From positions 1 through 43,870 of the IMG/VR virus record IMGVR_UViG_3300025892_000042: a stretch of DNA of 43,870 nucleotides. One strand, given 5' to 3'. This document shows, piece after piece, positions 11,927-43,352 of the stretch. This DNA is from a virus. Within the stretch, counting starts at the first letter, position 1, and each line of letters begins with the position of its first letter. The notes below the pieces were generated by a model. It did no database searches, was not told the DNA's origin, and was given only the letters and a program-made list of their open reading frames with translations. The position numbers and the translations under genes were made by a program.

Positions 11927-13077
11927 ACCCAAATGATTTATTAACGTACAAACGATTTGATGTTGTTGTCAAATATATGTATGCATCCAATTTATCAAGT
12001 GAATTTTATAAAAATGCTTACAAAGAACATCTTAAAATTTGGAATGGCTTTCATGAAGGAAATCCAAAAAAGAATGGGTTTGAAGAATTTGACAATGCAT
12101 TTAAATCGATTATTAATAACACAGTTGATGAGCCAGTTCCAGTGAATCCTGAAGGTCATATTGCCAATGGTGCTCATAGATTAGCCGCCGCGTTATATCA
12201 TCAAAGACCTATTAATACTAGAAATACAAATTCGAAGGAAAATTATCCTATTGAAGCCGATTATAAAGTCTTTCATAAAAAAGGACTGCAAAGACATATC
12301 TTACAAAGAACTGCATTAGAGTATGCAAAACTTAAATCTAACACTCATGTCATATGTTTATTTCCTATTGCTCATACACGCATGGATGAAGTAATGAATA
12401 TTATTGAGAAACATTCTAATATATTTTATAAATCATCTGAAGTATTAAATGCCACAGGACAACTTGGTTTAATAAAAGAAATATATCTTTCTGATGGTTG
12501 GGCTAACGAAAAAGGAATAAGAAAAAAATGTAAGCAGTGTTTTCGAGGAATGAGCAAAGTAACCTTTGTGTTGATAGATGCAAAAAATCTTGAAACTGTT
12601 AAAGAAATGAAAAAAGAGATTAGAGCATTATTCAAAGTTGGCAACCATTCTGTTCACATTAATGACTATCATGTAGACACGATTCGTATAGCAAAAACAG
12701 TGTTCAATGATAATAGCATACATTTCCTTAATAATAGAAAAGATACTTTGTTTCCTAATTACAAAAAACTAATGTCTGATACAAAATCAGATGACAACAC
12801 AATTATTACTGGTTCAACTGTATTATCGCTATACGGTTTAAGGGATTGCAAAGATATAGATTTAATTTATTTTAATAATCCACCCGTTGACTCGCATAAT
12901 CAATATGTTGGAACACTTTATAAATTAACTCTAGACGATATTTTTAATAATCCAATGTATCATCTATATTACAATGGTTTTAAATATGTGTCTTTAGATG
13001 TTATAAAAAACATGAAGAAAATACGGAATGAACCAAAAGATGTTATAGATGTAAAATTAGCAGAGGAAATAAAATGA
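11923..13077 (+). CDS. ParB-like / nucleotidyltransferase fusion, putative
   Basis: A 384-residue two-part protein. The N-terminal part holds PVNPEGHIANGAHRLAAALY (about 74-93), which resembles the GxHRLxAA core of ParB/Srx-type domains. The C-terminal part holds GSTVLSLYGLRDCKDIDLIYF (about 295-315), the hGS...DxD pattern of the polymerase-beta nucleotidyltransferase fold. The middle (about 130-260) resembles neither. ParB-like domains do occur in polysaccharide loci, but I do not know this combination. It could prime or activate a sugar, or modify a protein or nucleic acid. Both domain calls rest on motif reading alone. It overlaps both neighbours by 4 bases. Confidence 0.55.
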   Translation: MNPNDLLTYKRFDVVVKYMYASNLSSEFYKNAYKEHLKIWNGFHEGNPKKNGFEEFDNAFKSIINNTVDEPVPVNPEGHIANGAHRLAAALYHQRPINTRNTNSKENYPIEADYKVFHKKGLQRHILQRTALEYAKLKSNTHVICLFPIAHTRMDEVMNIIEKHSNIFYKSSEVLNATGQLGLIKEIYLSDGWANEKGIRKKCKQCFRGMSKVTFVLIDAKNLETVKEMKKEIRALFKVGNHSVHINDYHVDTIRIAKTVFNDNSIHFLNNRKDTLFPNYKKLMSDTKSDDNTIITGSTVLSLYGLRDCKDIDLIYFNNPPVDSHNQYVGTLYKLTLDDIFNNPMYHLYYNGFKYVSLDVIKNMKKIRNEPKDVIDVKLAEEIK

Positions 13078-13889
13078 AAAATTTAATTTATCAAGTATGG
13101 GCAGGCGACATGAGACCTGGTTGTAGGTACAGTGAAAAACTATTTAGAGAATATGCAGAAAGAATTGGGGCAGATTACAGATTAGATATAAGTCCTAATA
13201 TTGCCAGTAAGTATGTGCGTAAAGACGGCATGTATTTTGAATGGTTAAATCCTATGCTAGATGATTCGTTCCTTGAATACGATAATGTCTGTGTAATCGA
13301 TTTGGATGTGTTTCCAGTTGATAATTTAACTAAAAATATTTTCGACGAGCCAATTAAAGACTTTGGCATCTGTACTGAACCTTTTCAAGGTAAGTATCGT
13401 GAATCTACAACTATAGGTAAAAACATAAACAAAAAGAGTGACGAACGATGGGCTCGAGCAGTTGAATCAAAATACGGTACAGCCATGCCTCGAGATGCTG
13501 ATGGATATGTAAAAGTATATAATGCTGGTATGGTAATGTTTACAAAGAAAGGTATGCAACTTGCTAGAGAAAAATTTGTACCTTTTCAAGAATATATGGA
13601 TTATATTAGAGCCTGTGGCTTAGGTAGATTCTACAGTGTGGATCAGAATTATTTTCATGCTATGATGGTAACGCATAGCGAATATACTGAAATGGATAAT
13701 GGCTGGAACAATTATGTCCACGGTGTTCGTGGTCCTTTAGCATCACAAGATCCAGTGAATGATAGTAGAAATGAACTAACTAAATTTGTACATATTCAAT
13801 TGAGTGGTGCAGATTATTTTAACAATGAACAATTATATAATATTACTAATTCAGCAAGATCAGAATGGAATGTGGAAGGTATACAATGA
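13074..13889 (+). CDS. GT-A glycosyltransferase, putative
   Basis: A 271-residue protein of the same general pattern as the 8918 product: N-terminal NLIYQVWAGDMRPGCRYSEK, VCVIDLDVFPVDN with a DxD motif (about 75-79), KVYNAGMVMFTKKGM, and FYSVDQNYFHAM. The shared order of motifs suggests that the island grew by duplication of one GT8-like ancestor. It is coupled to both neighbours by ATGA overlaps. Confidence 0.75.
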   Translation: MKNLIYQVWAGDMRPGCRYSEKLFREYAERIGADYRLDISPNIASKYVRKDGMYFEWLNPMLDDSFLEYDNVCVIDLDVFPVDNLTKNIFDEPIKDFGICTEPFQGKYRESTTIGKNINKKSDERWARAVESKYGTAMPRDADGYVKVYNAGMVMFTKKGMQLAREKFVPFQEYMDYIRACGLGRFYSVDQNYFHAMMVTHSEYTEMDNGWNNYVHGVRGPLASQDPVNDSRNELTKFVHIQLSGADYFNNEQLYNITNSARSEWNVEGIQ

Positions 13890-14446
13890 TAGTAGCAAAT
13901 CTTAAAGAAACAAAAAACATTAATGAATATCAAACTTCGTTAAAACAACAATTGCAGAAAGCACATGGAGAACAATACACAGATTACCTAGACGAAATTT
14001 CAAGATTAACAAAAAAATCGCAATCTTATAGAGAAATAGGAACATTTCAAGGTGCTTCTACATCTACAGCAATGATGAATATGATCCCATACATTGAAAC
14101 TATTGATCTTGACTTTGTTCATATTAATCCTCACAAACATATTTTTGAAACACACGCACAACAAAATAAAATAGAATTTAAAATGATTCAAACTGATTCG
14201 TTGAAATATAACATAGATAAAAAAACTGAGGTACTTTTAATAGACGGATATCATAATCCAAAACACGTGTTAAAAGAATTAGACAAGTATGCACCTTGGA
14301 CAACACAAACTATTGTACTACATGATACAACATTATTTCCAAGATTATGGAAATCTGTACAAAATTTTCTATCTTCTCATCAAGACTGGAAACTTGTTTA
14401 TAGACATACAGTGAATGCAGGCTACACAGTATTAGGAAAGAAATAA
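13886..14446 (+). CDS. Class I SAM-dependent methyltransferase (Methyltransf_24-like)
   Basis: The start at 13886 (ATGA with the upstream stop) gives 186 aa. Motif I is REIGTFQGASTSTAM, motif IV region is VLLIDGYHNPKHVLKELD, and TIVLHDTT follows. This is the layout of cephalosporin hydroxylase/Methyltransf_24-type proteins common in glycan loci. It has a neighbour of the same family (14448), and the two could act on successive sugars. Substrate unknown. Confidence 0.75.
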   Translation: MIVANLKETKNINEYQTSLKQQLQKAHGEQYTDYLDEISRLTKKSQSYREIGTFQGASTSTAMMNMIPYIETIDLDFVHINPHKHIFETHAQQNKIEFKMIQTDSLKYNIDKKTEVLLIDGYHNPKHVLKELDKYAPWTTQTIVLHDTTLFPRLWKSVQNFLSSHQDWKLVYRHTVNAGYTVLGKK

Positions 14447-14447
14447 A

Positions 14448-15050
14448 ATGAATTTAAAAGAAATTTTTATAAAAAACAAATGTGATAAGGCTACAAAGCA
14501 CAGATATTACGAATTGTATCAACAAGATTTTGATAAATTTCAAAATGATGAAATTAACATATTGGAAATTGGCACGTTCAAAGGAGAAAGTACCCATTCT
14601 TGGCTTGATTATTTTCCTAAAGCACAAGTCTATACAGCAGATACATTTGAAAGGGTTCCACCAGAAAAGATTCCTGCATTAAAAAATGATCGTGTACAAT
14701 GGTACAAACTTGATAGCACTTCATTAAACTGTAAAGAAAATTTTAATAATTTAGGTATCCAATTTGATTTTATAATCGACGACGGACTACATACTCCTGA
14801 AGGGCAACGGTTGACTTTTGAAAATTTAATCGATTGTTTAAAACCCACAGGATCATATTACATTGAAGATGTATGGATGTTAAACAAAGGAAACAATATG
14901 TCACATTGGTGGGTTAAAAAACATTCAAAAGATTTTACTATGGAAAAATTCAATAAATTAATCGATTCAGTCAATAAATTTAAAGTATCGGAACATGATT
15001 TTAGTAGTTCAAAAATTCCAGATAGTTATATATTGAAAATTAAAAAATGA
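14448..15050 (+). CDS. Class I SAM-dependent methyltransferase (Methyltransf_24-like)
   Basis: A 200-residue protein with motif I ILEIGTFKGESTHSWLD (about 38-54), the motif II acidic residue in VYTADTFERV, and FDFIIDDGLHTPEGQ (about 105-119), then SYYIEDVWML. It is the second such protein in a row; the two share the IGTF(Q/K)G core. It starts 1 base after the upstream stop and overlaps the next gene by 4 bases. Confidence 0.8.
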   Translation: MNLKEIFIKNKCDKATKHRYYELYQQDFDKFQNDEINILEIGTFKGESTHSWLDYFPKAQVYTADTFERVPPEKIPALKNDRVQWYKLDSTSLNCKENFNNLGIQFDFIIDDGLHTPEGQRLTFENLIDCLKPTGSYYIEDVWMLNKGNNMSHWWVKKHSKDFTMEKFNKLIDSVNKFKVSEHDFSSSKIPDSYILKIKK

Positions 15051-15712
15051 AAGCATTTATTATAACTCTGATGAATGATGCATGGAGTTTGTCATATGCT
15101 GAACGTTGCTTACAAAGTTTACAAGATACAGAAAGTGATATTGAAGCCACATTGTTCGATGCCACAACACCTGAAACTATTAAACCGGTTGCTTGGACAT
15201 GGCCAACTGGTAAAAAAATTACTTGTACAAAAACTAATCTATTTTTAAAACCTTATAAAACATACGACAACAACAAACGAATTGCCGCGGCTCAAAGTCA
15301 TTTTAACTTGTGGCAAAAATGCGTAGACATGAACGAATCCATAATGATATTGGAACACGATGCTGTCTTTACAAGAAAATTTACCAAACCCAAACATTTT
15401 GATGGTGTGGGAGCCTACAGCATAAATGATCCTAGAGGAGCCACTTTCAAATCCAAAGAATATCATTCTGCATTATCTGATGGATTTAATTCTGTGCCTT
15501 GGGTAGCACCAAAGAATATTCCACAAGGACTGCCAGGACATTCTGCTTATGTGATTACACCATGGGCGGCTCGTGACATTATACAAAAACAAAACAGCAT
15601 AGGATGGTGGCCCAATGACGCTATTATGTGTAGTCAGTTGTGCGAATGGCTGTTTGTTTACAAACCATACTTCACCAAAACACAAGGCGTCAAATCTACC
15701 ACTTCACTGTAA
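15047..15712 (+). CDS. Glycosyltransferase family 25-like protein (3 of 3)
   Basis: A 221-residue protein with family 25 landmarks: AFIITLMNDAWSLSYAERC, IAAAQSHFNLWQKCVDMNES, IMILEHDAVFTRKF (acidic metal motif), and GHSAYVITPWAARDII. It matches the 6724 and 8340 proteins in motif order but not closely enough to suggest recent duplication. It ends 22 bases before the next ATG, one of the few gaps in the island, and that gap holds a late box. Confidence 0.8.
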   Translation: MKAFIITLMNDAWSLSYAERCLQSLQDTESDIEATLFDATTPETIKPVAWTWPTGKKITCTKTNLFLKPYKTYDNNKRIAAAQSHFNLWQKCVDMNESIMILEHDAVFTRKFTKPKHFDGVGAYSINDPRGATFKSKEYHSALSDGFNSVPWVAPKNIPQGLPGHSAYVITPWAARDIIQKQNSIGWWPNDAIMCSQLCEWLFVYKPYFTKTQGVKSTTSL

Positions 15713-15719
15713 ATTTGCC

Positions 15720-15727
15720 AATAAATA
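15720..15727 (+). promoter_or_regulatory. Late promoter box inside the glycan island
   Basis: AATAAATA lies in one of the few intergenic gaps of the island. The predicted start at 15733 lies two bases before the ATG at 15735. It divides the island into two transcription units. Confidence 0.65.
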
Positions 15728-15734
15728 TTTTTAT

Positions 15735-16418
15735 ATGAAAGTTTTTGTAGGCTATGACACGAGAGAAGATATTGCATATCAGGTTTGCGAACATTCAATC
15801 TACACACATTCATCAGATGCAGAAGTACAACCATTAAATCAACAAACACTACGACAGGACAAATGGTATTGGAGAGAATTAGATAAACTAGCATCAACTG
15901 AGTTTACATTCACAAGATTCTTAATACCAGCCCTAGAAAATTATAAAGGTTGGGCATTGTTTTGTGATTCCGATATAGTTTTTACAACTGATATAAAAGA
16001 ATTATTCGATCAAGCAGATGACAAGTATGCTGTCATGTGTGTAAAACATGACTACACACCCAAGCCTGGAATTAAAATGGATGGTCAAAAACAAACTGTG
16101 TATCCAAGAAAAAATTGGAGTTCTGTTGTGCTGTACAACTGTGGACACAAATCAAACGAAAAATTAACAGTGGATTTAGTAAACAATCCCAATTATGATG
16201 GAGCATACTTTCACCGATTCAGTTGGTTGAAAGATGAAGAAATTGGTTCGCTCGATCACAGTTGGAATTGGCTTGTGGGATGGTATAAGTCTCCACAAGA
16301 TGGTGAGCCTAACGCCTTACACTACACAGAAGGCGGCCCTTGGTTCAAAAATTATCGTAATTGCGAATACGGTGATGTTTGGAAAAAATATCTTCACACA
16401 ATGATGAATAGTAAATGA
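15735..16418 (+). CDS. GT8-like glycosyltransferase
   Basis: The late box just upstream and the strand MKVFVGYDTREDIAYQVCEH fix the start at 15735. An in-frame codon at 15615 lies inside the previous gene and is rejected. The 227-residue product shows GWALFCDSDIVFTTDI with the DxD motif, SSVVLYNCGHKSNEKL, and GSLDHSWNWLVGWY. This pattern (VFVGYD...E...FCDSD) is typical of bacterial and phage glycosyltransferases related to family 8. It is the first gene of the second island transcription unit. Confidence 0.85.
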   Translation: MKVFVGYDTREDIAYQVCEHSIYTHSSDAEVQPLNQQTLRQDKWYWRELDKLASTEFTFTRFLIPALENYKGWALFCDSDIVFTTDIKELFDQADDKYAVMCVKHDYTPKPGIKMDGQKQTVYPRKNWSSVVLYNCGHKSNEKLTVDLVNNPNYDGAYFHRFSWLKDEEIGSLDHSWNWLVGWYKSPQDGEPNALHYTEGGPWFKNYRNCEYGDVWKKYLHTMMNSK

Positions 16419-16419
16419 T

Positions 16420-17217
16420 ATGCACTATTATTTTGATGGACAAGATGAAATACTACAACACTGGAATAGAGGACTAGGAGCTCATTTCCTACCGTTTGAA
16501 GCAATCAAAAAAACTTCTTTGGACAACACAGTTAGTTTTAGAAGTCTAGCAAAAAGAAAAATAATCAACGATTGTAAAAATTCAGGAAGAACATTTTACT
16601 ATATCGACACAGGATATGTGGGTAATCTCATAAAGAAAAAACTGTTTCACAGAGTTGTAAAAAATGATGTGCAACACAGTCAAGTGTTTGATGTTCCTGA
16701 TGATCGTTGGAGAAAGATACAAGCAAAAAGTCCTGAATTAGAATTTGTAGAATGGCGTAAGAATCATAAAGGTAAAATCTTACTAGTAGTACCAAGTGAA
16801 AAGCCATGTAAATATTATAACATAAACAGAGATCAATGGGTCAATGATACTTTGAATGAATTAGCAAAATACACTGATAGAGAAATTATTGTTAGAGACA
16901 AAGGCAAAAGACATGAACGAGTTGGTGCAGGCAGTGTGCCTAAATTCTTAATAAAAGAACAAATTTATGCCACAGTGACATATCAGTCTATTGCGGCTAT
17001 TGAAAGTGTTTGTGCAGGTGTGCCTGCATTCACTATGGAACGAACTGCCGCAGACAGTGTGACATCACAAGATTTAAGCAAGATAGAATCACCATTCTAT
17101 CCATCAAGAGATCAAGTACACAAATGGCAACATTGGTTGGCGTATTGCCAATATCATATCAGAGAATTGGGTTCTGGACAAGCAAAAGCAATAATGGAAA
17201 AATATGGATTATTATGA
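16420..17217 (+). CDS. GT-B-like glycan protein (1 of 4 relatives)
   Basis: A 265-residue protein with the pattern KILLVVPSEK, then WVNDTLNELAKYTDREIIVRDK, then YATVTYQSIAAIESVCAGVPAF. The same three blocks recur in the 17214, 18984 and 31481 products. The pattern resembles the C-terminal half of GT-B/capsule-polysaccharide-type proteins, where the last block (S..A.EA...G.P) contacts the donor nucleotide. The function as a transferase is inferred. It starts 1 base after the previous stop and overlaps the next gene by 4 bases. Confidence 0.65.
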   Translation: MHYYFDGQDEILQHWNRGLGAHFLPFEAIKKTSLDNTVSFRSLAKRKIINDCKNSGRTFYYIDTGYVGNLIKKKLFHRVVKNDVQHSQVFDVPDDRWRKIQAKSPELEFVEWRKNHKGKILLVVPSEKPCKYYNINRDQWVNDTLNELAKYTDREIIVRDKGKRHERVGAGSVPKFLIKEQIYATVTYQSIAAIESVCAGVPAFTMERTAADSVTSQDLSKIESPFYPSRDQVHKWQHWLAYCQYHIRELGSGQAKAIMEKYGLL

Positions 17218-18161
17218 TTAGTGTTGTAGGATACATGAAGGTTATTCCGCCTGGAAATAAAAAACCACAAAAGCCTTTAATAATAAAAAACTTTATTGAA
17301 GGTGTGAATAGATGCGGCGACAAAGGAATAATAAGCAATTCTTGGACAGTGGTTCCAGCAGATGTGTCTGTGCTACAAGGATTTGTACATCAACAACCAC
17401 AAAAACACAGACATCTAATGTTACGAAAATCTGTGTTTGAAACACAACAAAAAAGAAACAAACGCACCATGATTGTGGATTCCAGTTTGTTTTTGTATGC
17501 AGATCCAACTCAATCAAAAAATTATTTGCGTTATGGATACGATGGTATCTTTCCTAACACAGCAGAATACTGTTATGACAATCCAGATCCATTACGATGG
17601 GAAATAATTAAAAAAGACCTAGGCATAGATTTAAAACCCTGGAGATTGGGTGGCGGAAAATATATTTTAATCTGCTGTCAGAGAGATGGTGGTTGGAGTA
17701 TGGGTGGACTAAAAGTTAATGTTTGGTTACAACATGCTATTCAACAAATAAGAAGTTTCACAAAAAAAGAAATAAGAATAAGATTCCACCCAGGAGATAA
17801 ATCATCTAGACAATGGGCTAATCTTGTAAGACAATGGATAAACAGCGGACAATCAACATATCAAAATATTGCAATCAGTGGTGCAAAAAACTTAATAGAT
17901 GAATTTGCTCATGCACATGCAGTGGTTGGACACAACTCTAGTCCAACAGTAGCATCTGTTATCGAAGGAATACCCACATTGGTCACAGACCCTGACGGTG
18001 CTCAAATTAAAGGAGTGAATTTAGAAAAATGGCAAGACATAGAATCTCCTAAAGAATTTGATAGAGAACTGTGGATAAGACGCATAGCACAAATACACTG
18101 GACATTGGACGAAGTGAAAGCAGGATTGGCATGGAAACATTTAAGGAAATACGTCAAATGA
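17214..18161 (+). CDS. GT-B-like glycan protein (2 of 4 relatives)
   Basis: The start at 17214 (ATGA with the upstream stop) gives 315 aa; an in-frame codon at 17010 inside the previous gene is rejected. The three shared blocks are YILICCQRDGG, WLQHAIQQIRSFTKKEIRIR followed by FHPGD, and HAVVGHNSSPTVASVIEGIPTL. FHPG and the GHNSSPTV.A...G.P block resemble capsule polysaccharide/CDP-glycerol-type GT-B proteins. It overlaps the next gene by 4 bases. Confidence 0.65.
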   Translation: MISVVGYMKVIPPGNKKPQKPLIIKNFIEGVNRCGDKGIISNSWTVVPADVSVLQGFVHQQPQKHRHLMLRKSVFETQQKRNKRTMIVDSSLFLYADPTQSKNYLRYGYDGIFPNTAEYCYDNPDPLRWEIIKKDLGIDLKPWRLGGGKYILICCQRDGGWSMGGLKVNVWLQHAIQQIRSFTKKEIRIRFHPGDKSSRQWANLVRQWINSGQSTYQNIAISGAKNLIDEFAHAHAVVGHNSSPTVASVIEGIPTLVTDPDGAQIKGVNLEKWQDIESPKEFDRELWIRRIAQIHWTLDEVKAGLAWKHLRKYVK

Positions 18162-18994
18162 TCACTGCATTAACTACATTTCATAAATCAGGGCTAGACT
18201 TGTACGGACAAAGATTCATAGACAGTTTTGCAAATAACGTCGACAAAAAAATTAAATTGTTGGTGTATGCAGAAAATTGCACGCCTGTCAATCCAGATGC
18301 AAGTCAAATAACAATTATAGATTCAAAAGAACTAGAAAAATTAAATCAATTCAAATCACGTTGGGGCAATGTGCCAAAAGCAAATGGCAAATGTCCTTTT
18401 CCAGAAAAGCGTCCAAGAGATCATCATAAAGAATTTAAATGGGACGCTGTAAGATTTGCAAATAAAGTTTATGCTGTATTTGATGCTGTGGATAGAACTG
18501 ACGACACATGGACTGTGTGGATAGATGCAGACACCTATGTGCATTCACCTATCAATTACGAACAATTCACACAACTGTTGCCAAAAGATAAATGGATAAC
18601 GTTTGTTGGCAGAGGTAAAGGATCACAAACATGGCCCGAGTGTGGCTTTTATGGGTTGAACAACAAACACGACACTTGTAAAAAATTTTTAAAAGAATTT
18701 GAACGCATGTATCAAGAAGCAGACAATGGAATTTTCAAACTAGATGAATGGCACGACAGTTATGTGTTTGGCAAAATATTAAATCAACTTGCACCAATTG
18801 ACGACAACTTCCATGATTATTCAAAAGACATATACAACAAAACTGCTAAGACAGGTGGTGGTGGACATCCGCTGATTAACTCAGTTTTAGGAAATTACTT
18901 TGATCACATGAAGGGCGATAGAAAAAATAAAGGAAAAAGCCAAAAGAAAGACTTGCTTGCCAATCGCACAGAGTCATACTGGAATGCAATTTAG
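18158..18994 (+). CDS. GT-A glycosyltransferase, putative
   Basis: The start at 18158 (ATGA overlap) gives 278 aa and is preferred to an in-frame codon at 18071. It contains TWTVWIDADTYVHSP, a strong DxD motif, preceded by KWDAVRFANKVYAVFDAV, and a GFYGLNNKHDTCKKFL segment. A GGGGHPLINS loop lies near the C terminus. The overall pattern is a GT-A transferase acting on an unknown acceptor. It overlaps the next gene by 11 bases. Confidence 0.7.
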   Translation: MITALTTFHKSGLDLYGQRFIDSFANNVDKKIKLLVYAENCTPVNPDASQITIIDSKELEKLNQFKSRWGNVPKANGKCPFPEKRPRDHHKEFKWDAVRFANKVYAVFDAVDRTDDTWTVWIDADTYVHSPINYEQFTQLLPKDKWITFVGRGKGSQTWPECGFYGLNNKHDTCKKFLKEFERMYQEADNGIFKLDEWHDSYVFGKILNQLAPIDDNFHDYSKDIYNKTAKTGGGGHPLINSVLGNYFDHMKGDRKNKGKSQKKDLLANRTESYWNAI

Positions 18995-19820
18995 TTTATT
19001 CACAGACAACGGTCCGTTAAACAGTCCTCTTGTATGGGAGGCTGTACAATCTGGATTACAAAGATTAGGACACTCCGTTGATCAAAACAATCTAGACACA
19101 GAAGTTCCTGTAATTTGGTCACTGTTGTGGAATGGAAGAATGACAAAAAATAAATCTGTTTGGGAACATTTTAGATCCAAAAATAAAAATGTGCTTGTAG
19201 TGGAAGTGGGTGGTATAAAAAGAAATACAACTTGGAAAGTTGGATTGAATGGAATTAATAGAGCAGGAGATTTCGGACCAAAAAATAATAACAATGACAG
19301 AGTAAAACAATTTAATCTTGATCTCAAGCCTTGGCGTACAGATGGTGAACACATTCTAGTATGTTTACAACACACCAAAAGTGAACAATGGAAAAATATG
19401 CCAACACAAGAACAATATGTTATAGACACTGTGAATACCATAAGAAAACACACAGATAGAAAAATCATAATACGATCTCATCCTAGATGTGTATTACAAA
19501 ATCCACCTATTTTAGAAAATGTCAATTACGAAATTCCAAAACAAATTGCAAACACATATGATGATTTTGACTTAAATTTTTCTAATGCTTGGGCAGTTGT
19601 AAGTTACAGCAGTAACCCAGGAATACATGCTGTATTGAATGGTATTCCTGCTTTTGTGGGTGAACAAAGCCTTGCTTATGACGTTGCAAACACAGATTTC
19701 AGCACCGTTAACAGCCCAAAGACCCCTGCTAGACAGCAATGGCTTAATGATTACACGCACACTGAATGGACAATTGAAGAAATAGCACAGGGCACGCCTT
19801 TTTCAAGATTGACTTTTTAA
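18984..19820 (+). CDS. GT-B-like glycan protein (3 of 4 relatives), last of island
   Basis: The start at 18984 gives 278 aa beginning MQFSLFTDNGPLNSPLVWEA. The shared blocks are HILVCLQHTKSEQW, YVIDTVNTIRKHTDRKIIIR followed by SHPR, and AWAVVSYSSNPGIHAVLNGI followed by PAF. The C terminus (WTIEEIAQG) resembles that of the 17214 product (WTLDEVKAG), so the two are probably duplicates. It is the last gene of the island; the next gene has its own sigma70-type promoter that begins inside the last codons of this one. Confidence 0.65.
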   Translation: MQFSLFTDNGPLNSPLVWEAVQSGLQRLGHSVDQNNLDTEVPVIWSLLWNGRMTKNKSVWEHFRSKNKNVLVVEVGGIKRNTTWKVGLNGINRAGDFGPKNNNNDRVKQFNLDLKPWRTDGEHILVCLQHTKSEQWKNMPTQEQYVIDTVNTIRKHTDRKIIIRSHPRCVLQNPPILENVNYEIPKQIANTYDDFDLNFSNAWAVVSYSSNPGIHAVLNGIPAFVGEQSLAYDVANTDFSTVNSPKTPARQQWLNDYTHTEWTIEEIAQGTPFSRLTF

Positions 19821-29040: not shown

Positions 29041-30038
29041 TAGTTTGGGGTATAACAGGAAACAATCACGATGCCAGTTTGGCAGTGATGGAATGGAAGG
29101 TACAAGGATTAACTGATCACTATGCTCTAAAATTAAAATGGGCAGGCATGAGCAAAGACTTCAGTGGTGTGCCTGGTGATCCTACCCTGTGTCCGAAACT
29201 AATGGCAGAAGTAAGAGCAAATCCTAAATGGGCCTACCCTGCAAAGATTTATTTTTATGAAAAGCCTTTGAAGAAAACTATGAGACAACTGATTGCAGGA
29301 CAAGGTTGGAAATGGAAAGAAAATAATATTAAAAAGTTTTTAGCAAAATCTGGTGTACACAATGTTCCTATAGAATATATTGATCATCATCATAGCCATG
29401 CGGCATATGGATATTACACATCGGGATTTAAAAATGCGGCAGTTGTTGTTTTAGATTCGATTGGTGAGTTTGAAACATTTACTATTTGGCATGGCAGAGG
29501 TACCAAGTTAGAAAAGAAATACACTCAAAGATATCCTCACAGCATTGGATTGTTTTATTCAGCAATGACTCAAAGAATAGGATTTCAAGCAAACGCAGAA
29601 GAATACAAATTGGAACAATTGGCTAAAAAAGGCAATTGGAGAAAATATTATAGATTGTTTATGGAAGAAATTATCGACACTAGAATGCCTTTCAAAACAA
29701 GAATAAATCTACACAGAGGTTGTAATTGGTGGAGACCAGAATTGAACACAGAAGAAGACATGGCAGATCTAGCCGCAACTACACAGCACATTTTTGAACA
29801 AGTGTTGATGTGTGCAAGTTCGTGGATACAGATGAATATCAAAACATCAAACATAGTTTTGGTAGGCGGGTGTGCATTGAATAAAACTGCTGTGAGTAAA
29901 TTAAATGCAGTTTGGGATGATATATGGGTGCCAACAAATCCTGGTGATCCTGGATCGTGTATAGGTGCCGTGTGTGCCAAATATCAAAAGCACATTGACT
30001 TTCACGGAGAAATGTGGTATAATAAGGACAATGGTTAA
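29037..30038 (+). CDS. Carbamoyltransferase (NodU/CmcH N-domain type)
   Basis: NodU/CmcH-type enzymes move a carbamoyl group from carbamoyl phosphate through an adenylate to a hydroxyl on a sugar or antibiotic. The 333-residue protein opens WGITGNNHDASLAVME, and has YIDHHHSHAAYGYYTSGFKN (the metal-binding HxxxH of the Kae1-like domain), VVVLDSIGEFETFTIWHG, a GLFYSAMTQRIGF segment, and IVLVGGCALNKTAVSKL. Full-length relatives are about 550 aa and add a C-terminal YrdC-like half, which is missing. Such short forms occur in marine phages. The target could be a glycan from the island or a nucleotide. It ends over the start of gp41, with gp41's promoter inside its last codons. Confidence 0.88.
   Translation: MIVWGITGNNHDASLAVMEWKVQGLTDHYALKLKWAGMSKDFSGVPGDPTLCPKLMAEVRANPKWAYPAKIYFYEKPLKKTMRQLIAGQGWKWKENNIKKFLAKSGVHNVPIEYIDHHHSHAAYGYYTSGFKNAAVVVLDSIGEFETFTIWHGRGTKLEKKYTQRYPHSIGLFYSAMTQRIGFQANAEEYKLEQLAKKGNWRKYYRLFMEEIIDTRMPFKTRINLHRGCNWWRPELNTEEDMADLAATTQHIFEQVLMCASSWIQMNIKTSNIVLVGGCALNKTAVSKLNAVWDDIWVPTNPGDPGSCIGAVCAKYQKHIDFHGEMWYNKDNG
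29995..30023 (+). promoter_or_regulatory. Sigma70-type promoter of gp41, inside the preceding gene
   Basis: TTGACT (29995-30000), 17 bp, TATAAT (30018-30023). The predicted start at 30030 is one base before the gp41 ATG at 30031. It lies within the last codons of the carbamoyltransferase gene. Confidence 0.8.
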
Positions 30039-31488
30039 ACAAAATAAAGATTACGGATACGAGATACAAAAACTGTATCTTGAAATGATGTTAAGTGACG
30101 CAGAAACATTTGTGCGTTGTCAGTCCATATTTGATTACACACTGTTTGATAGAAAACTTCAAGAAACAGCAGACTTTGTGAACAAGTATGTTGTTCAATA
30201 TAATTCATTGCCAACATATGACATTGTGAACAAGTCGTGTAATATGGAATTGAAGGCGGCAGATAATTTAACTGAAGAACATTTCAATTGGTTATTAGAT
30301 GACTTTGAAACATTTGTTAGACACAAAAGTTTGGAAAGAGCAATATTAAAAAGTGCTGATATGTTAGAAAACGGTGAATATGGTCCAGTTGAAGAATTGG
30401 TCAAGAAGGCAGTACAAATAGGATTACACAAAGATATAGGAACAGATTATTTTGATGATCCCAAAGCAAGACTAATGGGATTAAAAGATCAAAACGGTCA
30501 AGTTAGCACAGGCTGGACAACACTAGATAAAAAATTGTTTGGTGGATTCAACAAAGGTGAATTGAATATATTTGCTGGTGGATCTGGTGCAGGTAAGTCT
30601 TTGTTCCTTGCAAACTTAGGTTGTAATTGGGTGCTGAATGGTTTAAATGTTGCATATGTATCATTTGAATTAAGTGAAGCACTAGTAAGTATGAGACTAG
30701 ATTCTATGCTCACTGATGTGCCTGCTAGAGAAATATTTAAAGATTTAGATGGTGTAGAAATGAAAGTTAAACTGCTTGGCAAAAAAGCAGGTAAGTTTCA
30801 AATCAAATACATGGCAAGTGGTAAAAACGCAAACGATTTAAGAAGTTATCTCAAAGAATATGAAATTAAAACTGGCAGTAAACTAGATGTTATACTGGTT
30901 GACTATTTGGATCTTATGATGCCAATCAGTAGAAAAGTTTCTCCAAGTGATTTGTTTGTTAAAGATAAATTTGTATCTGAAGAATTAAGAAACTTGTCAA
31001 TGGAATTAAATGTTATCTTTGTCACAGCATCACAGTTGAACAGAGGTGCAGTTGAAGAAATTGAATTTGACCACAGTCATATATCAGGAGGTTTAAGTAA
31101 AATACAAACTGCTGATAATGTGTTTGGTATCTTTACAAGTAGAGCAATGAGAGAACGTGGTAGATATCAAATACAATTAATGAAAACTAGATCATCTAGC
31201 GGTGTTGGTCAGAAAATAGATTTAGAATTTGATTTAGATAGTTTAAGAATAAGAGATCTAGCAGAAGATGATTCAGGACAAAATTATGGTAGCAGTGGCA
31301 ATAGTACCATATATAACTCATTGAAAAAAACTTCAACAGTTATAGATGATAATGCAACAGATTCATCTGAATCACAAGAAAAAGTTCCTAATCCTACAAA
31401 AGGACAATCGTTGCACAAAGCCGATACAGATAATACAGATCAAACAAAGTTGAGGGACTTTTTAAAGAACCTTGATGGCGATGAATAA
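30031..31488 (+). CDS. 41: Replicative DNA helicase (T4 gp41, DnaB-like)
   Basis: This hexameric 5'-3' helicase drives the phage fork with primase gp61. The start at 30031 is fixed by the promoter just upstream; an in-frame codon at 29965 falls inside the preceding gene. The 485-residue protein has a helical N-domain (1-140), then Walker A AGGSGAGKS (182-190), LDVILVDYLDLM (Walker B), FVTASQLNR (sensor, H3-type) and a C-terminal arginine-finger region (SRAMRERGRYQIQLMKTRSS). A Ser/Asp-rich tail follows (430-485). It has its own promoter and a 3' overlap with the 31481 gene. Confidence 0.93.
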   Translation: MVKQNKDYGYEIQKLYLEMMLSDAETFVRCQSIFDYTLFDRKLQETADFVNKYVVQYNSLPTYDIVNKSCNMELKAADNLTEEHFNWLLDDFETFVRHKSLERAILKSADMLENGEYGPVEELVKKAVQIGLHKDIGTDYFDDPKARLMGLKDQNGQVSTGWTTLDKKLFGGFNKGELNIFAGGSGAGKSLFLANLGCNWVLNGLNVAYVSFELSEALVSMRLDSMLTDVPAREIFKDLDGVEMKVKLLGKKAGKFQIKYMASGKNANDLRSYLKEYEIKTGSKLDVILVDYLDLMMPISRKVSPSDLFVKDKFVSEELRNLSMELNVIFVTASQLNRGAVEEIEFDHSHISGGLSKIQTADNVFGIFTSRAMRERGRYQIQLMKTRSSSGVGQKIDLEFDLDSLRIRDLAEDDSGQNYGSSGNSTIYNSLKKTSTVIDDNATDSSESQEKVPNPTKGQSLHKADTDNTDQTKLRDFLKNLDGDE

Positions 31489-32311: not shown

Positions 32312-32327
32312 AGGCGGACAGCAAAAT

Positions 32328-32372
32328 TCCGCGAAGCGGTAACGCAGAAATTCCAAATCCGCGAAGCGGTAA
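32328..32372. repeat. Two 15-bp direct repeats with GCGAAGC mini-hairpins
   Basis: TCCGCGAAGCGGTAA occurs at 32328-32342 and 32358-32372, 30 bp apart. Each holds CCGC-GAA-GCGG, an inverted repeat with a GAA loop, and the core GCGAAGC is known as an exceptionally stable DNA mini-hairpin. A third degenerate copy (CGGTAAGC) follows at 32385-32392. The 85-bp gap between convergent genes is otherwise empty and noticeably richer in G+C than its surroundings. The role could be bidirectional termination or a scar of insertion. Confidence 0.8.
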
Positions 32373-32396: not shown

Positions 32397-33470
32397 TTAA
32401 TCTATGATTTTTCTTTTGACGCCTCGTCTTTTGACATCAAGTGTGCTACAATGTATTCCACCGTCCCAAAACAAATAGTGTCTCTGTGGTACAACGTGGC
32501 AGTCTATGTGTAAGGACTTCAGTTTTGCAAACAGTTTGGGTATGTGTCGTGCAAACACAATGTTGTTTCTGTCTATCACCAACACATTGAGATCAAAGCA
32601 AACTTCTTGACTGTAACCTCTCCAATTCTCCAAGTACTTGTCTATCCAAGCAATGTCCATTTTGTTTTGTGCTTCTGCATAATCTTGTACATATCTGTCC
32701 ATTTTCAATTCAGGCAAACAGTCACTCACATCAATCAACTGTTTGTTGTGTAAGCATTCAGGCACCCATTCCTTGCCTGCGTGTATCACTGTGTCATCAT
32801 CTATCATGATGAAGCCGTGGTCAATGTGACCAAAGCCATTGAATTTTGTGCCGGCATTGTGATGAAATTTATACTGATTCAGTTCACGTTTGCACCATTC
32901 TAAACCTGAGGCTGAACCCGGTCCTTCGTGATTAACAATGATGGCATCACCTGCTTTGTACATGGTGGCAGTGTGCCACAACACCTTGTCCATCAATTTT
33001 TCTTTGTAGGTTTTGTCGTTCACAAACCAATCATCCCGGTTGTTCAAGTTCATCAACATGGGTGCTGGTTGGCTGATCCAACGATAACCTTGCTGAAACA
33101 ACTGTTCAAATATTCGGTAATAACTGATGGAGTCAAAGTATCTATCTGTGTAACTGGTGTAGGTTTGTATCACAGTGTTGCCCATCACCAACATGGCATC
33201 TCTAGGCACTATGGGTGCAATGGGAAACTGCACATCAAACTCTGGCATGGAGATAGGATCATAATACTGGTGCACATCTGGTCGCATCACTTCAATGTTG
33301 CCCTGCTTGAGAAAGTCAGCCAACTGATCCAGGTCCTGCTTGGTTTCTTCTAAAATTTTATTGAACTGTGTGGGGTTGTTGTGATGTGTCAACAGTTGAC
33401 TTGCTTGATCAGGATCATATGTGTCTCCCACTATCACAGTCTCCAACGGATCGTATTCTGTGTAAATCAT
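32397..33470 (-). CDS. Amidinotransferase (glycine/inosamine amidinotransferase family)
   Basis: These enzymes move the amidino group of arginine to an amine, giving ornithine and a guanidino compound. The 357-residue protein begins with the family strand PLETVIVGDTYD. It has the catalytic-pocket Asp175 in YKAGDAIIV, His215 and Asp217 in FGHIDHGFI, and the catalytic Cys341 in WDGGIHCSTLDVKRRG, which matches human AGAT (GGGxHC) and bacterial StrB. It is the last gene of the minus operon, joined by ATGA overlap to the oxygenase. The acceptor is unknown; glycine, an inosamine or a lysine-like amine are options. Local base composition is more G+C rich than the genome average. Confidence 0.9.
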   Translation of the reverse strand: MIYTEYDPLETVIVGDTYDPDQASQLLTHHNNPTQFNKILEETKQDLDQLADFLKQGNIEVMRPDVHQYYDPISMPEFDVQFPIAPIVPRDAMLVMGNTVIQTYTSYTDRYFDSISYYRIFEQLFQQGYRWISQPAPMLMNLNNRDDWFVNDKTYKEKLMDKVLWHTATMYKAGDAIIVNHEGPGSASGLEWCKRELNQYKFHHNAGTKFNGFGHIDHGFIMIDDDTVIHAGKEWVPECLHNKQLIDVSDCLPELKMDRYVQDYAEAQNKMDIAWIDKYLENWRGYSQEVCFDLNVLVIDRNNIVFARHIPKLFAKLKSLHIDCHVVPQRHYLFWDGGIHCSTLDVKRRGVKRKIID

Positions 33471-34018
33471 ATGTTTAGATATTTTACGTGCATGAAACTT
33501 TGTAGGCTACGTCTTTTTACATCTGGTGTAACAATTTTAGTCACAGCATGATACAGGTCTTCATTGTTGATCACAATTCTGTTGCCGATGGGTTCCAAGT
33601 ATTCGCCCTTGTCTGCATTGTCCTGTTTGAACAAAAACAATCCACCATCTTGAAAGTTCCAAGTGTCATTAAGAAAAAAGGTCACACCCACATAATCGAT
33701 GTCTTGTTTGTCCCAAGGCAGGAATCTGTCTTTGTGCCACGTGCTCACATAGGGATATTTCATTTCATGGTAACGCAGTGTGTGGTCATGTCCTGTGAGT
33801 AATTCTTTGGTGAAGTAACCTTGTTCAACCAACAAACCGAAAAAGAAATCTTTGGTTTCGTGATTGAGATAGAATAGATTACAATCATCTGTTTCGTGAT
33901 GATCTGTTTCATCATCATACCTTTCAAAACGTCCACCGTGCTGTGTGATATCATTTTGTATCAACTGATTAATTTTTGTCAGTTGTTCATCATTTAAAAA
34001 ATTATCTTTTATAATCAT
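33467..34018 (-). CDS. 2OG-Fe(II) oxygenase (prolyl-4-hydroxylase-like)
   Basis: A 183-residue jelly-roll protein with the full iron facial triad: His95-x-Asp97 (TWHKDRF), distal His157 (EDLYHAVTKI) and Arg170 (VKRRSLQSF) for 2-oxoglutarate, plus FLNDTW and GGLFLFK strands typical of the P4H family. Free amino acids, peptides and proteins are substrates of this family. It is flanked by an amidinotransferase and an aminotransferase with ATGA overlaps on both sides, pointing to joint action on a small molecule. Confidence 0.88.
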   Translation of the reverse strand: MIIKDNFLNDEQLTKINQLIQNDITQHGGRFERYDDETDHHETDDCNLFYLNHETKDFFFGLLVEQGYFTKELLTGHDHTLRYHEMKYPYVSTWHKDRFLPWDKQDIDYVGVTFFLNDTWNFQDGGLFLFKQDNADKGEYLEPIGNRIVINNEDLYHAVTKIVTPDVKRRSLQSFMHVKYLNI

Positions 34019-35109
34019 TGCAACTGTCCTTTCAAAACAGTAAAATATTCTTCTGTGGCATTTATGGGTATGATGAAAAATTTATGATCATCGCCCTTTA
34101 GCAAATCAAACAGTGTGCCGAACTGTCCCACTATGCTGTAACCTGCTTCCTCAAATATTGTTTTTGCTGTTGCCACAATGCTGTGATGCTGTGACATCAA
34201 TTGTTCCTCGTGCAGGATATCAATATATTTAATGCAACTCAACACACCCGGCAAACTGTAATTGTATGTAAAGCCGTGTTCCCAATCAAACTCTTCAGGC
34301 AACACATCGTCAATTTTTTCGTTGTACATGGTGATACTGAGAGGAAAAAATCCTGCTGTGATGGCTTTGCCCATGGTGAATATGTCTGGCTGAATAGGAG
34401 TTTGTTTCCAACCTGCAAAACTGCCAGTCTTTCCTCCGCCAATAAAAATATCATCCATAATCACAATCACACCTTGTTGTTGAATCTGTTTTATTTTGTT
34501 CCAAAATTCTTCTGTGTTGGGTCTTAACTGTTGTCCATAAGAACAAGTTTCCACCATGACACACATAACATCTTGCCAATCTACTGCGTTGATATCAAAA
34601 TCTCTTTTCAATCTAATCACTTGATCATATGGCTTTAGTGTGTAGAAAGGATCATTAAACAAACTGTCCCCCATGTTGTAATTTAAAAATGTGGATCCAT
34701 GATAACTGTTTTCAAAACACACAATCTTTGTGCGTTTGTGTTGTCCCACAAGTTTTTGATATGCACTGGCAAGTTTTATTGCACCTTCGTTGGCGTCTGA
34801 TCCACTCAATGCAAATATACTTTTGTATCCTGTCATAAGAAACAATTTATCAGACAGTTCATAACTGGGCTCATTCAAGTAGAGATTTTCATTCTGCACA
34901 ATGCTTTCTGCTATTTCTGGTTTTACTTTGATATTGTCATACACATAGTCTAATATATCGTGTCTATCAAATCCCAAAGTGAAGCAACCATAATGCAACA
35001 ACGGATCTATAATTTTCTTTCCGTCATCAATATAACCATATTGCCAATGTGGTTTTGCTACATTGGTTAATCTTTGTACACCTGGTATGAGTCCTTTTAA
35101 TGATTTCAT
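34015..35109 (-). CDS. PLP-dependent class III aminotransferase
   Basis: A fold-type I PLP enzyme of 364 aa, shorter than usual class III enzymes (about 400-450). Visible landmarks: LSGSDANEGAIKLA (102-115, phosphate-binding region), SYHGST (135-140), IMDDIF (Asp220, pyridine N) and GKTGSFAGW, and the Schiff-base Lys248 in FTMGKAITAGFFPL. It is likely to interconvert an amine and an aldehyde/keto group or move an amine, as ornithine aminotransferase or glutamate-1-semialdehyde mutase do. Its partner amidinotransferase releases ornithine, a possible substrate. Overlaps the downstream gene by ATGA. Confidence 0.88.
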   Translation of the reverse strand: MKSLKGLIPGVQRLTNVAKPHWQYGYIDDGKKIIDPLLHYGCFTLGFDRHDILDYVYDNIKVKPEIAESIVQNENLYLNEPSYELSDKLFLMTGYKSIFALSGSDANEGAIKLASAYQKLVGQHKRTKIVCFENSYHGSTFLNYNMGDSLFNDPFYTLKPYDQVIRLKRDFDINAVDWQDVMCVMVETCSYGQQLRPNTEEFWNKIKQIQQQGVIVIMDDIFIGGGKTGSFAGWKQTPIQPDIFTMGKAITAGFFPLSITMYNEKIDDVLPEEFDWEHGFTYNYSLPGVLSCIKYIDILHEEQLMSQHHSIVATAKTIFEEAGYSIVGQFGTLFDLLKGDDHKFFIIPINATEEYFTVLKGQLQ

Positions 35110-35117
35110 ATAATTAA

Positions 35118-35654
35118 TTATTGAATTTCAAATACCAATTGATCGTATGTGACGTCTGCTGAATCTGTAAATTGTTTTTTGGATTCTAATGCAACTGTTA
35201 TAGGTAAATCCATATCCACAAAGTTTTGAACGGAAACTTTTTTGGTATCTCCTTGATGGAAAGTTTTATCCAGTTTGTGTGTTTGATCATTCACCGTGAG
35301 TGTTACATCATATTCGTCAGTTAATTTTTCACTGCCTTCAACAAAATTCTTTCTATTAAACGTTGTGGTACATATAGAACTATTGCTGTCAAACACAAAG
35401 TCTACTTCTGTTTTTTCTTTTATGTCACCAAATGAAATATCATAAATTAAATTGACAACGTTTACACTGTCAGAATCAAACAGTATTTGATCTGTCATCA
35501 GCAACGGTAAATTTTCTTCAGCATCGTCAATATTTTCAAACACAACTGCATCATTGATCATCACAGTTAAATTGTTTTTGTATTGATGTTTTTTCAAACT
35601 AAAATATTGTTTGTTGTCTTCTTTTGGACAACGCAGTGTGAAAATTTTATTCAT
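35118..35654 (-). CDS. Unknown beta-rich protein in the amidinotransferase operon
   Basis: A 178-residue, apparently all-beta protein (for example KIFTLRCPKEDNKQYFSLKK, DSVNVVNLIYDISFGD, TTTFNRKNFVEG, DVTLTVNDQTHKLDK). It has no signal peptide, TM or catalytic motif that I can see, and its charge pattern is Asp/Lys rich. It lies 8 bases upstream of the aminotransferase and overlaps the 3' end of the 35647 gene by 8 bases. It could be a substrate carrier or virion accessory protein, but this is unsupported. Confidence 0.75.
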   Translation of the reverse strand: MNKIFTLRCPKEDNKQYFSLKKHQYKNNLTVMINDAVVFENIDDAEENLPLLMTDQILFDSDSVNVVNLIYDISFGDIKEKTEVDFVFDSNSSICTTTFNRKNFVEGSEKLTDEYDVTLTVNDQTHKLDKTFHQGDTKKVSVQNFVDMDLPITVALESKKQFTDSADVTYDQLVFEIQ

Positions 35655-36273
35655 GCTCTATACTGTCTTTAAATTTTACTAATGCTTCTTCAAAACTTAA
35701 ATGGTCTCCTGGTAATTTTAACAAAGTCAATGACAGTGTCCATCTATCTTGTGTAGGATCTGGATTGTAGGTATTGTGTAGTTGACCTACATTCATCAAA
35801 CTGGGTTTGTTGATCACTGCTTGATAAATTAAATCTACATCATTTTCATCTGCACTGTAACACTTGTAACATTCAATGTCTGGTTCTATTCCTGCTTCTT
35901 GAAAACTTTTATTAATTTCTGTTTCATCATGATTAATTTCAACATATTCTTTATCTGATTTAAGTTTGTACCATTTTGTTGTGCTGGTTTCCGGACCCCA
36001 TGTAAAGTTAAGTTTACAGGCATCTCGTTGTCCGGGAGGTATCACAGTGTCGTTGTGAATGGGTATTGCTCCTCCATTGGGTTTGGTATAAAATCCTTCT
36101 ATTACATTTGATATCTTTAAGTTGTATTGAGCAAGCCATTTGAACAATTCGTCTGGCAGTTCAGAAATATTCACATATGAAATAAAATCATTTTCCAATG
36201 CTTTGTTAAAACATCTGGGTTTGGGCATTGTAAATGGTAGTTGTATGTACCTATGATATATGTTGAAGTCCAT
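35647..36273 (-). CDS. 2OG-Fe(II)/Asp-Asn beta-hydroxylase-like protein
   Basis: A 208-residue protein. An iron-site pattern is visible: His73-x-Asp75 in AIPIHNDTVIPP, a distal His166 in NVGQLHNTYN, and Arg177 in DRWTLSLTLL, spaced as in aspartyl/asparaginyl beta-hydroxylase-like oxygenases. The strand KLNFTWGPE follows the first motif. A perfect TATAAATA late box lies 9 bases before the ATG, with no Shine-Dalgarno. It is the first gene of a five-gene operon. Confidence 0.7.
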   Translation of the reverse strand: MDFNIYHRYIQLPFTMPKPRCFNKALENDFISYVNISELPDELFKWLAQYNLKISNVIEGFYTKPNGGAIPIHNDTVIPPGQRDACKLNFTWGPETSTTKWYKLKSDKEYVEINHDETEINKSFQEAGIEPDIECYKCYSADENDVDLIYQAVINKPSLMNVGQLHNTYNPDPTQDRWTLSLTLLKLPGDHLSFEEALVKFKDSIEHE

Positions 36274-36282
36274 GTATGAAAA

Positions 36283-36290
36283 TATTTATA
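36283..36290 (-). promoter_or_regulatory. Perfect T4 late promoter box (TATAAATA), minus strand
   Basis: TATAAATA on the minus strand. The predicted start at 36277 is four bases before the ATG at 36273. It should drive the five-gene amidinotransferase operon late in infection. Confidence 0.75.
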
Positions 36291-37410: not shown

Positions 37411-38274
37411 TTATTGTGGTATAAATGCATGGACAACTTTTTGTGCTAATTTTTTCCACTCAGCAAGTTCTCCAATTTCTTGTATGTGATGAGCAGTTGT
37501 TCCATCATGATAAGAACAACGAATCTGCATCATTCCTTTTTCAGGTCTTGCATCTGCTGTTACGCCTATCGCAGTTTGACAATCTCCGTTTACTAATTCC
37601 AACACATATCTTTCAGCCATCAATTCAATTGTGGGCCATTCTAATATTTGAGGATTCCATATGTCTTTCATTTTTACATCATTGCTTCTTATCTGCACAA
37701 CAACCTTGCCTTGTCCTGCGGCAGGCAACAATTCATTTTCTGGCATCACAGTGTGCTGAACTTCTTTGTTCAATCTATCCAAGGCACATTTTGCCATGAT
37801 GATGCCGTCCACTTCTTGTTTTTGTATTAATTCTAATCTTGTTTGAATATTTCCTCTTATGGGTACAAAACGTAAATCTGATCTTTGATCTCCCAACATC
37901 TTTGCTCTGCGTGGAGCACTTGTGCCTATTCTATATCCACTAGGTATAGAATCAAAATTTTCAAAAGGTCCTACCAATGCATCACGCCTGTCACCTTGTT
38001 CCCACACACAACCTAAAATTTCTGTTCCGTCTGCAATTTCTGTTCCCACATCTTTTGCACTGTGAATAGCACAATCTATTTCTCCTGCAAGGAGTTTGTC
38101 TTCTATTGTGGAACAAAATATGTGTTTACCACCCATTTCATGTATAGGAGTTTTTTGATCTATGTCGCCTTGACTTTTAATTTGAATCAGTTCATAAGGT
38201 TGAACTAAACCTGACGCGGCACCGTCTGCCTGTCGTATGGCGAGAGGAGATCCTCTTGTGCCAATTTGAATCAT
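37411..38274 (-). CDS. hemC: Hydroxymethylbilane synthase (porphobilinogen deaminase)
   Basis: HemC joins four porphobilinogens into hydroxymethylbilane, the linear tetrapyrrole on the way to haem, sirohaem and cobalamin. The start at 38274 gives 287 aa (E. coli 313) beginning MIQIGTRGSPLA, the normal N terminus. An earlier in-frame start would overlap the upstream gene. Conserved parts: GGKHIF (49-54), HSAKDV with catalytic Asp75, GDRRDALVG, IGTSAPRRAKML, PIRGNIQTRL, LLPAAGQGK, and Cys232 in NGDCQTAIG, the attachment site of the dipyrromethane cofactor. All essential residues are present. It is part of a late-box operon of tiny genes. Confidence 0.93.
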   Translation of the reverse strand: MIQIGTRGSPLAIRQADGAASGLVQPYELIQIKSQGDIDQKTPIHEMGGKHIFCSTIEDKLLAGEIDCAIHSAKDVGTEIADGTEILGCVWEQGDRRDALVGPFENFDSIPSGYRIGTSAPRRAKMLGDQRSDLRFVPIRGNIQTRLELIQKQEVDGIIMAKCALDRLNKEVQHTVMPENELLPAAGQGKVVVQIRSNDVKMKDIWNPQILEWPTIELMAERYVLELVNGDCQTAIGVTADARPEKGMMQIRCSYHDGTTAHHIQEIGELAEWKKLAQKVVHAFIPQ

Positions 38275-38281
38275 GATACTG

Positions 38282-38470
38282 CTATGCTCTGCCCCAAGGT
38301 ATTGGATTGCCTTTGTTGTCGACAACTAAATCGCTTGTATCTTTGTACTGGGCAACCATTATGCCTTTGCCTTTGCCTTCAGCGATCCATCTACAAGGTT
38401 TGATTTCTCTTTCGTTGTGATACCTTGTCAAGTGATTGGTAATGATACCTCTTGCTTTTACACCTGCCAT
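38282..38470 (-). CDS. Small protein of unknown function
   Basis: A 62-residue basic protein (MAGVKARGIITNHLTRYHNE, then IKPCRWIAEGKGKGIMVAQY). The second half looks like a small beta hairpin. It lies 7 bases before hemC and 2 bases after the preceding gene, in a tightly packed operon. I recognise no family; a small conserved protein of marine T4-like phages is likely. Confidence 0.65.
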   Translation of the reverse strand: MAGVKARGIITNHLTRYHNEREIKPCRWIAEGKGKGIMVAQYKDTSDLVVDNKGNPIPWGRA

Positions 38471-42749: not shown

Positions 42750-43352
42750 CTATTTCAGTTTGTATGTCTTCTGTAGTCTGTTCAGTAAGATACCATATGC
42801 TGGTAAAAATACTATTAGTCCTACTGCAATTTTGATCACCGTTTGTGATCCTGCAATCTCCATCCAGTTAGCCGCCATGTATTCGTCGGCACTGTTGTTG
42901 AAAGCCACTGCAAAGAAAGTGTAAGTGTCAATGATGTTTGCCGCGATAGTTGATACCGCTGGTGCTAACCACCAATTGTTCTTAAACCCTTCTCTGATGT
43001 ATTGAAACACATACACGTCCAGCATGGTACCAATTGCATAAGCAGTGGCACTTGCGAAACCAATTCTTACTGCGACCGATCCCGGTGCTCCTTCTGCCAA
43101 CACAACTGCTATGGATCCAATGATTGCCAAAGGATAAGCCGCCGCGATGGTTTGTCTTGCTATTGTTTTGCCCAACAGTCTAACAGTCAAGTCTGTTGCT
43201 ATCACAACTAATGGGAAAGTGAATGCCGCCCACGTCAATTTAACACCCAGTATTTCTACAGGTATTGCCACTAACGCATTTGAAACTGTGATCACGATAA
43301 CGTGCAGTGCCACTAATTTCATCAGCATTGATTTGTCTACGTTTTTAAACAT
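42750..43352 (-). CDS. yhhQ: Queuosine precursor transporter (YhhQ / VUT family)
   Basis: A 200-residue inner-membrane protein with about six hydrophobic segments. The family core is clear: a first TM (LVALHVIVITVSNALVAIPV), VVIATDLTVRLLGKTIARQT (the conserved TDxxxxxxGK...R), and IREGFKNNWWLAPAVSTIAA followed by NIIDTYTFFAVAF (the conserved SxxxxxxIDTxxFxxxAF). YhhQ takes up queuine-type 7-deazapurine bases (preQ0/preQ1). Length is usual for the family (about 220). A Shine-Dalgarno (AGGAG, 43358-43362) and two promoters precede it. Confidence 0.9.
   Translation of the reverse strand: MFKNVDKSMLMKLVALHVIVITVSNALVAIPVEILGVKLTWAAFTFPLVVIATDLTVRLLGKTIARQTIAAAYPLAIIGSIAVVLAEGAPGSVAVRIGFASATAYAIGTMLDVYVFQYIREGFKNNWWLAPAVSTIAANIIDTYTFFAVAFNNSADEYMAANWMEIAGSQTVIKIAVGLIVFLPAYGILLNRLQKTYKLK

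Follow-up and report, generated by a model that had tools for sequence, protein, structure and literature searches.

A conserved, partly exchangeable phage operon combining a class III aminotransferase and 2OG-Fe(II) oxygenase-like proteins with an amidinotransferase-like protein that carries histidine at a catalytic position

The window analyzed here is the whole 43,870-nt stretch of IMG/VR virus record IMGVR_UViG_3300025892_000042; the phages that carry the operon described below are marine. An earlier note on this DNA described five minus-strand open reading frames between positions 36273 and 32397, and all coordinates match our own exactly (Table 1). The genes were said to be joined by overlaps, which holds for three of the four junctions (oxyA/beta-rich gene, 8 nt; aminotransferase/oxyB, 4 nt; oxyB/AGAT, 4 nt); the remaining one, between the beta-rich gene and the aminotransferase, is an 8-nt gap (35110-35117). 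As a whole, that description stands in its coordinates, reading frames, promoter box and operon, but not in the complete catalytic residues it assigned to the AGAT-like protein. A simple scan found no terminator 3' of the operon. In the space where the AGAT gene and a glycosyltransferase-like gene converge there are two copies of ACCGCTTCGCGGA (window 32323-32370, minus strand); each is a short CCGC-TTC-GCGG hairpin, and neither scored as a terminator.

Table 1. Coordinates of the operon and its associated features in the window.
Feature	Position	Strand	Description
oxyA	35647..36273	(-)	208 aa; AspH-like 2OG-Fe(II) oxygenase, by motif
beta-rich protein	35118..35654	(-)	178 aa; all-beta; cassette type I only
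class III PLP aminotransferase	34015..35109	(-)	364 aa, compact; PF00202
oxyB	33467..34018	(-)	183 aa; P4H-like 2OG-Fe(II) oxygenase; PF13640
AGAT/StrB/HsvA-like pentein	32397..33470	(-)	357 aa; PDB profile search
TATAAATA box, T4-late-type promoter element	36283..36290	(-)	within longer conserved [T/C]ATAAATATTT
exchangeable cassette	33473..36279	(-)	replaced in L007, promoter to AGAT start codon

The assignment of a class III aminotransferase was borne out: the protein matches PF00202 with E = 5.8e-36 (124.5 bits, cut-off 30.5), and its PLP lysine (K248, codon 34368-34366), D219 and an SGSDANE motif are invariant in the alignment. The suggestion that it consumes the ornithine released by amidino transfer fared less well. 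In ArgD, the arginines of the HGR and RF.P motifs bind carboxylates. Ornithine recycling is unlikely because the window enzyme lacks both: the HGR of E. coli ArgD is HGST in this family, with Ser in place of the arginine, and the C-terminal MRF.P ('RF.P') arginine is missing. Against TIGR00707, the protein scores 119 bits versus a cut-off of 410.

The two oxygenase assignments differ in strength. OxyB is P4H-like, as proposed, with a match to PF13640 (5.6e-7) and an invariant HxD...H...R motif in the alignment (H95, D97, H157, R169). The beta-hydroxylase-like character of oxyA finds support in the same motif (H73, D75, H166 and R177, invariant in 11 homologues) and in other oxygenase genes of sister operons that match PF05118 (Asp_Arg_Hydrox), but oxyA itself has no Pfam match, PF05118 included. 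An hhalign comparison of oxyA with an AspH-like family gave 67%, covering the HxD stretch alone, and a low-confidence model (pLDDT 58) matches mostly 2OG oxygenases, none at E ≤ 0.001. The beta-rich protein is modeled by AlphaFold2 as all beta (pLDDT 91); searches of PDB and BFVD with this fold gave nothing at E ≤ 0.001, and the protein shows no similarity to the beta-rich c54.

The last gene of the operon encodes an AGAT/StrB-type protein, as had been claimed: profile searches of PDB match HsvA (4.2e-65), StrB1 (5.6e-65), SxtG (6e-57) and human AGAT (3e-53), the similarity spans most of the protein's length, and HsvA is its closest solved relative by sequence. Human AGAT uses Cys407, His303 and Asp254 for catalysis and Asp170 and Asp305 in the donor site. 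The equivalents of Cys407, His303, Asp170 and Asp305 (C341, H215, D91 and D217) are conserved in all aligned sequences that cover them, but the position of Asp254 is occupied by His166 (codon 32975-32973). Among 82 homologues, 78 have His in this column and four (L061, L078, CP220 and S-SCSM2R) have Asp, so the statement that all catalytic residues are present was too strong. Since the histidine persists across a clade in which the remaining catalytic residues do not vary, the substitution reads as an altered function or mechanism, not decay, and amidino transfer may be altered throughout the clade. A more radical alternative is that the protein is not an amidinotransferase at all and carries out some other pentein reaction, as a hydrolase or with a different donor, giving a product without guanidine. 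The nearly clade-wide histidine beside an otherwise intact site, and the aspartate retained in the four exceptions, speak for this alternative; we nevertheless consider it unlikely, given the overall profile match to four amidinotransferases of solved structure and the recurring aminotransferase partners, which suit an amine acceptor.

A scan of viral contigs for AGAT-like relatives gave 272, of which 80 were kept. About 40 near relatives have the same surroundings: wherever the contig reaches, hemC lies to one side together with an oxygenase gene, and a gp41-type helicase to the other. The same operon is indeed present in related genomes: the aminotransferase occurs in every near-relative contig that extends far enough upstream of AGAT, and a reverse scan with the aminotransferase gave 16 contigs, all with AGAT, including L101 (63% identity) and L103 (54%). 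Thus the two genes occur together in every contig reaching both, and the pairing holds for aminotransferase homologues at 53-54% identity. Scans of viral contigs with oxyA and with the beta-rich protein returned such operons only, the sole setting in which homologues of the latter were found. The dN/dS values of the operon genes are mostly ∼0.05-0.2 between closer relatives (gp41 helicase, 0.06-0.14), saturated distances being unreliable. The genes are therefore neither scattered among relatives nor dead, but grouped and under purifying selection. This conserved grouping supports the earlier proposal of a small biosynthetic pathway, for which a hydroxylated guanidino product is plausible.

Several neighboring genes are of interest in their own right. 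The hemC gene (hydroxymethylbilane synthase; window 37411-38325, minus strand; TIGR00212, 1.3e-68) lies beside the operon in many relatives. The gp41-type helicase (window 29965-31488, plus strand) is closest (55%) to those of PA5oct-like Pseudomonas jumbo phages, so the window phage may belong with the jumbo phages rather than among standard T4 relatives. In L009, L017-L024 and L034, AGAT is separated from the next gene by one of 550 aa that matches the NTPase and finger domains of DNA polymerase III alpha (6.2e-44; for example L034:759-2408, minus strand); the window has no such gene at this place. In the L025-L029 group a SET-domain gene directly adjoins AGAT (L028:11086-11571, minus strand, 1.8e-23), and a small CPFA-motif protein, DUF6875-like with a weak Pfam match, is encoded near AGAT in L038, L051, L061, L067, L073 and L135.

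The relatives carry two versions of the genes upstream of AGAT. Type I, found in the window, has the order oxyA - beta-rich protein - aminotransferase - oxyB - AGAT, and type II (L007, L020-L024 and L101) has c59 - P4H-like - c24 - aminotransferase - AGAT; c24 has a PF05118 match, and c59 narrowly misses the cut-off of that family. A blastn comparison of L007 with the window locates the boundaries: identity is 82.8% over 36400-36279, ending at the start of the operon, and 92.7% over 33473-32304, beginning at the AGAT start codon; between these two stretches only the aminotransferase aligns (71%). The same right-hand breakpoint appears when L019 is compared with L022 and L024 (91% versus 72%). 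Each type forms a single group in the aminotransferase tree, while the AGAT tree requires three type changes, forced by well-supported branches, and the helicase tree also requires three, with weaker support. This discordance argues that the block has been exchanged, probably repeatedly, with AGAT remaining part of the phage backbone.

As described earlier, the operon is preceded by a perfect TATAAATA box. It lies 9 nt 5' of the oxyA ATG and stands in the same place in relatives: type I and type II contigs alike have TATAAATA with a TTT tail where the operon begins, and a one-base variant, CATAAATA, takes its place in L011, L012, L017 and L028. No copy at the operon start was seen in L101, L103 or L135. 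The element is rare, with one copy in the window versus 4.4 expected from shuffles, and 3, 2 and 2 copies in three long relatives versus 9, 11 and 8 of a reversed control. Two of these seven copies precede this operon; the other five precede genes for a tail sheath, a baseplate wedge, tail-fibre-like proteins (two homologous sites) and a GT9 and carbamoyltransferase pair. Shorter contigs contain a few further copies. Being rare and sited before virion genes, TATAAATA behaves, at the level of sequence, like a T4-type late promoter. The description of the operon as late is thus supported by sequence, through an element common to the operon and tail genes. In type I just 7-9 nt separate the box from the first codon, which would leave almost no leader on a transcript initiated at TATAAATA. 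Together, these observations indicate a genuine and conserved biosynthetic module, probably expressed late, whose cassette exists in natural variants.

More distant phage AGATs, mostly at 28-33% identity, occur in a different setting. Radical-SAM proteins are encoded at 21 of 22 dereplicated distant AGAT loci and an Aminotran_1_2-like protein at 15 of them; AspH-like oxygenases are present at many, and a DegT match appears in the tally of AGAT neighbors. The window record contains no radical-SAM genes. The two settings are linked by L103, a contig that carries the class III operon together with nine radical-SAM matches over cut-off. A cellular origin was considered and set aside: the single scan of cellular genomes gave, with its patterns, only two MAGs with an AGAT relative, both Bdellovibrionia and both with the cluster of radical-SAM, aminotransferase and AspH-like genes. 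One of them, L086, is a 917 kb bacterial contig with a phage-type radical-SAM/aminotransferase/AGAT/AspH-like cluster.

From the gene families, conservation, purifying selection, promoter conservation and exchange read in the sequence, we infer a set of reactions, their order and their target. The class III aminotransferase would convert a carbonyl precursor to a primary amine, the AGAT-like enzyme would transfer an amidino group, normally from host arginine, onto this amine to give a guanidine, and the two 2OG-Fe(II) oxygenases would hydroxylate the precursor or the product, the compound built being a small molecule or a virion decoration. One phage AGAT family pairs with three unrelated kinds of aminotransferase (class III, Aminotran_1_2-like, and a DegT kind annotated as 3-amino-5-hydroxybenzoic acid (AHBA) synthase), suggesting that AGAT guanidinylates an amine supplied by the aminotransferase. 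On this view each phage lineage keeps its guanidine step and exchanges the enzymes for amine formation and hydroxylation together, as a single cassette; the products of relatives would then probably be variations on a common guanidino theme. We give about even chances to this reading, a late-expressed, modular amine-to-guanidine module.

Where such a product would act is suggested by the late-type control alongside tail genes and by the block exchange, which point to decoration of the virion over early metabolism. That it decorates a tail or fibre protein or a glycan is a tentative proposal, possible but short of probable. We found no carrier, substrate or attachment target for the pathway. 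A large glycosyltransferase/methyltransferase/epimerase cluster with GT25 genes occupies window positions 6724-19820 (plus strand), and GT25 is present in most near relatives; these GT25 glycan genes follow phage lineage. The cluster was rejected as an obligate partner: it is absent in the L101 and L103 contigs, both of which carry the operon, and is therefore not required.

Two other destinations have to be weighed. A soluble guanidino compound (polyamine-like, an osmolyte or an inhibitor) could act in the infected cell as a free metabolite and not on the virion. The paper on HsvA, the nearest solved relative, calls it a polyamine amidinotransferase in its title (as cited by PMC12833800), and guanidino enzymes are named among viral AMGs in the text available from surveys (PMC11360552, PMC8226683), where glycine amidinotransferase or creatine-type enzymes appear and no such operon is described. 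A surface or decoration role is better suited by the promoter type common to tail genes and by the block exchange, and we regard the free metabolite as somewhat unlikely. The second possibility is DNA hypermodification, with a guanidino side chain built on a phage base. PLP enzymes and oxygenases are known from phage pathways that modify bases, and the window encodes a Vut_1 family transporter (42750-43352, minus strand, 2.7e-24), which we take to be YhhQ-like. We nonetheless consider this destination very unlikely. The transporter is in none of 23 related records; no TGT/DpdA-type gene was found in 24 records and no thymidylate-synthase-type gene in 14, all incomplete genomes, so 7-deazaguanine and thymidylate-synthase-type modification were both set aside, and the operon promoter is of late type.

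Returning to virion decoration, a broader reading would be that many tailed-phage lineages run swappable late chemical 'caps', in which interchangeable enzymes, either amine-making and hydroxylating or radical-SAM, supply a conserved guanidinylating enzyme of altered catalytic site and give each phage a different guanidino decoration; we consider this doubtful as a generalization. Several features together make target and product testable: a small set of genes, a promoter of late type, cassette variants that occur naturally in close relatives and have clean breakpoints, and an entire clade of enzymes in which a catalytic residue is changed. The analysis also joins the radical-SAM/AGAT modules of Campylobacter phages and the viral 'glycine amidinotransferase' AMGs into one family.

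It is instructive to compare the operon with known systems. HsvA (from Erwinia), StrB1, SxtG and human AGAT belong to the same family by profile and have in common with the window protein the Cys, the His and two Asp; they differ from it at the Asp254 position and in their gene neighbors. The phaseolotoxin AmtA pathway likewise uses an amidinotransferase for a non-standard guanidino amino acid, a likeness by description (PMC4887976). A literature search for phage amidinotransferases with radical SAM or guanidino hypermodification returned nothing on phages of this kind, and no characterized guanidine chemistry on phage products was found. In Synechococcus phage S-SCSM2R (SSCSM2R_301-310), a 2OG oxygenase gene overlaps the AGAT start, as oxyB does here; the aminotransferase is the one with the AHBA synthase annotation, a radical-SAM gene and several glycosyltransferases are also present, and AGAT keeps the Asp. 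The earlier remark that the pathway has no known phage counterpart calls for qualification: for Campylobacter phages CP220 and CPt10, interchangeable modules have been described in which a putative glycine amidinotransferase gene accompanies five genes of the radical-SAM kind (Timms et al. 2010, PMC2853527). The AGAT-like gene there belongs to the same broad family as the one in the window (27% identity) and sits in a block reported to differ between close phages. Their modules contain five radical-SAM genes each with no class III aminotransferase reported (PMC2853527), the CP220 AGAT has the catalytic Asp where the window protein has His, and in the window operon AGAT itself is kept, with the breakpoint at its start codon. 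The CP220/CPt10 module is thus the nearest precedent, from which the window operon differs in its enzymes, its breakpoints and the active site of its AGAT.
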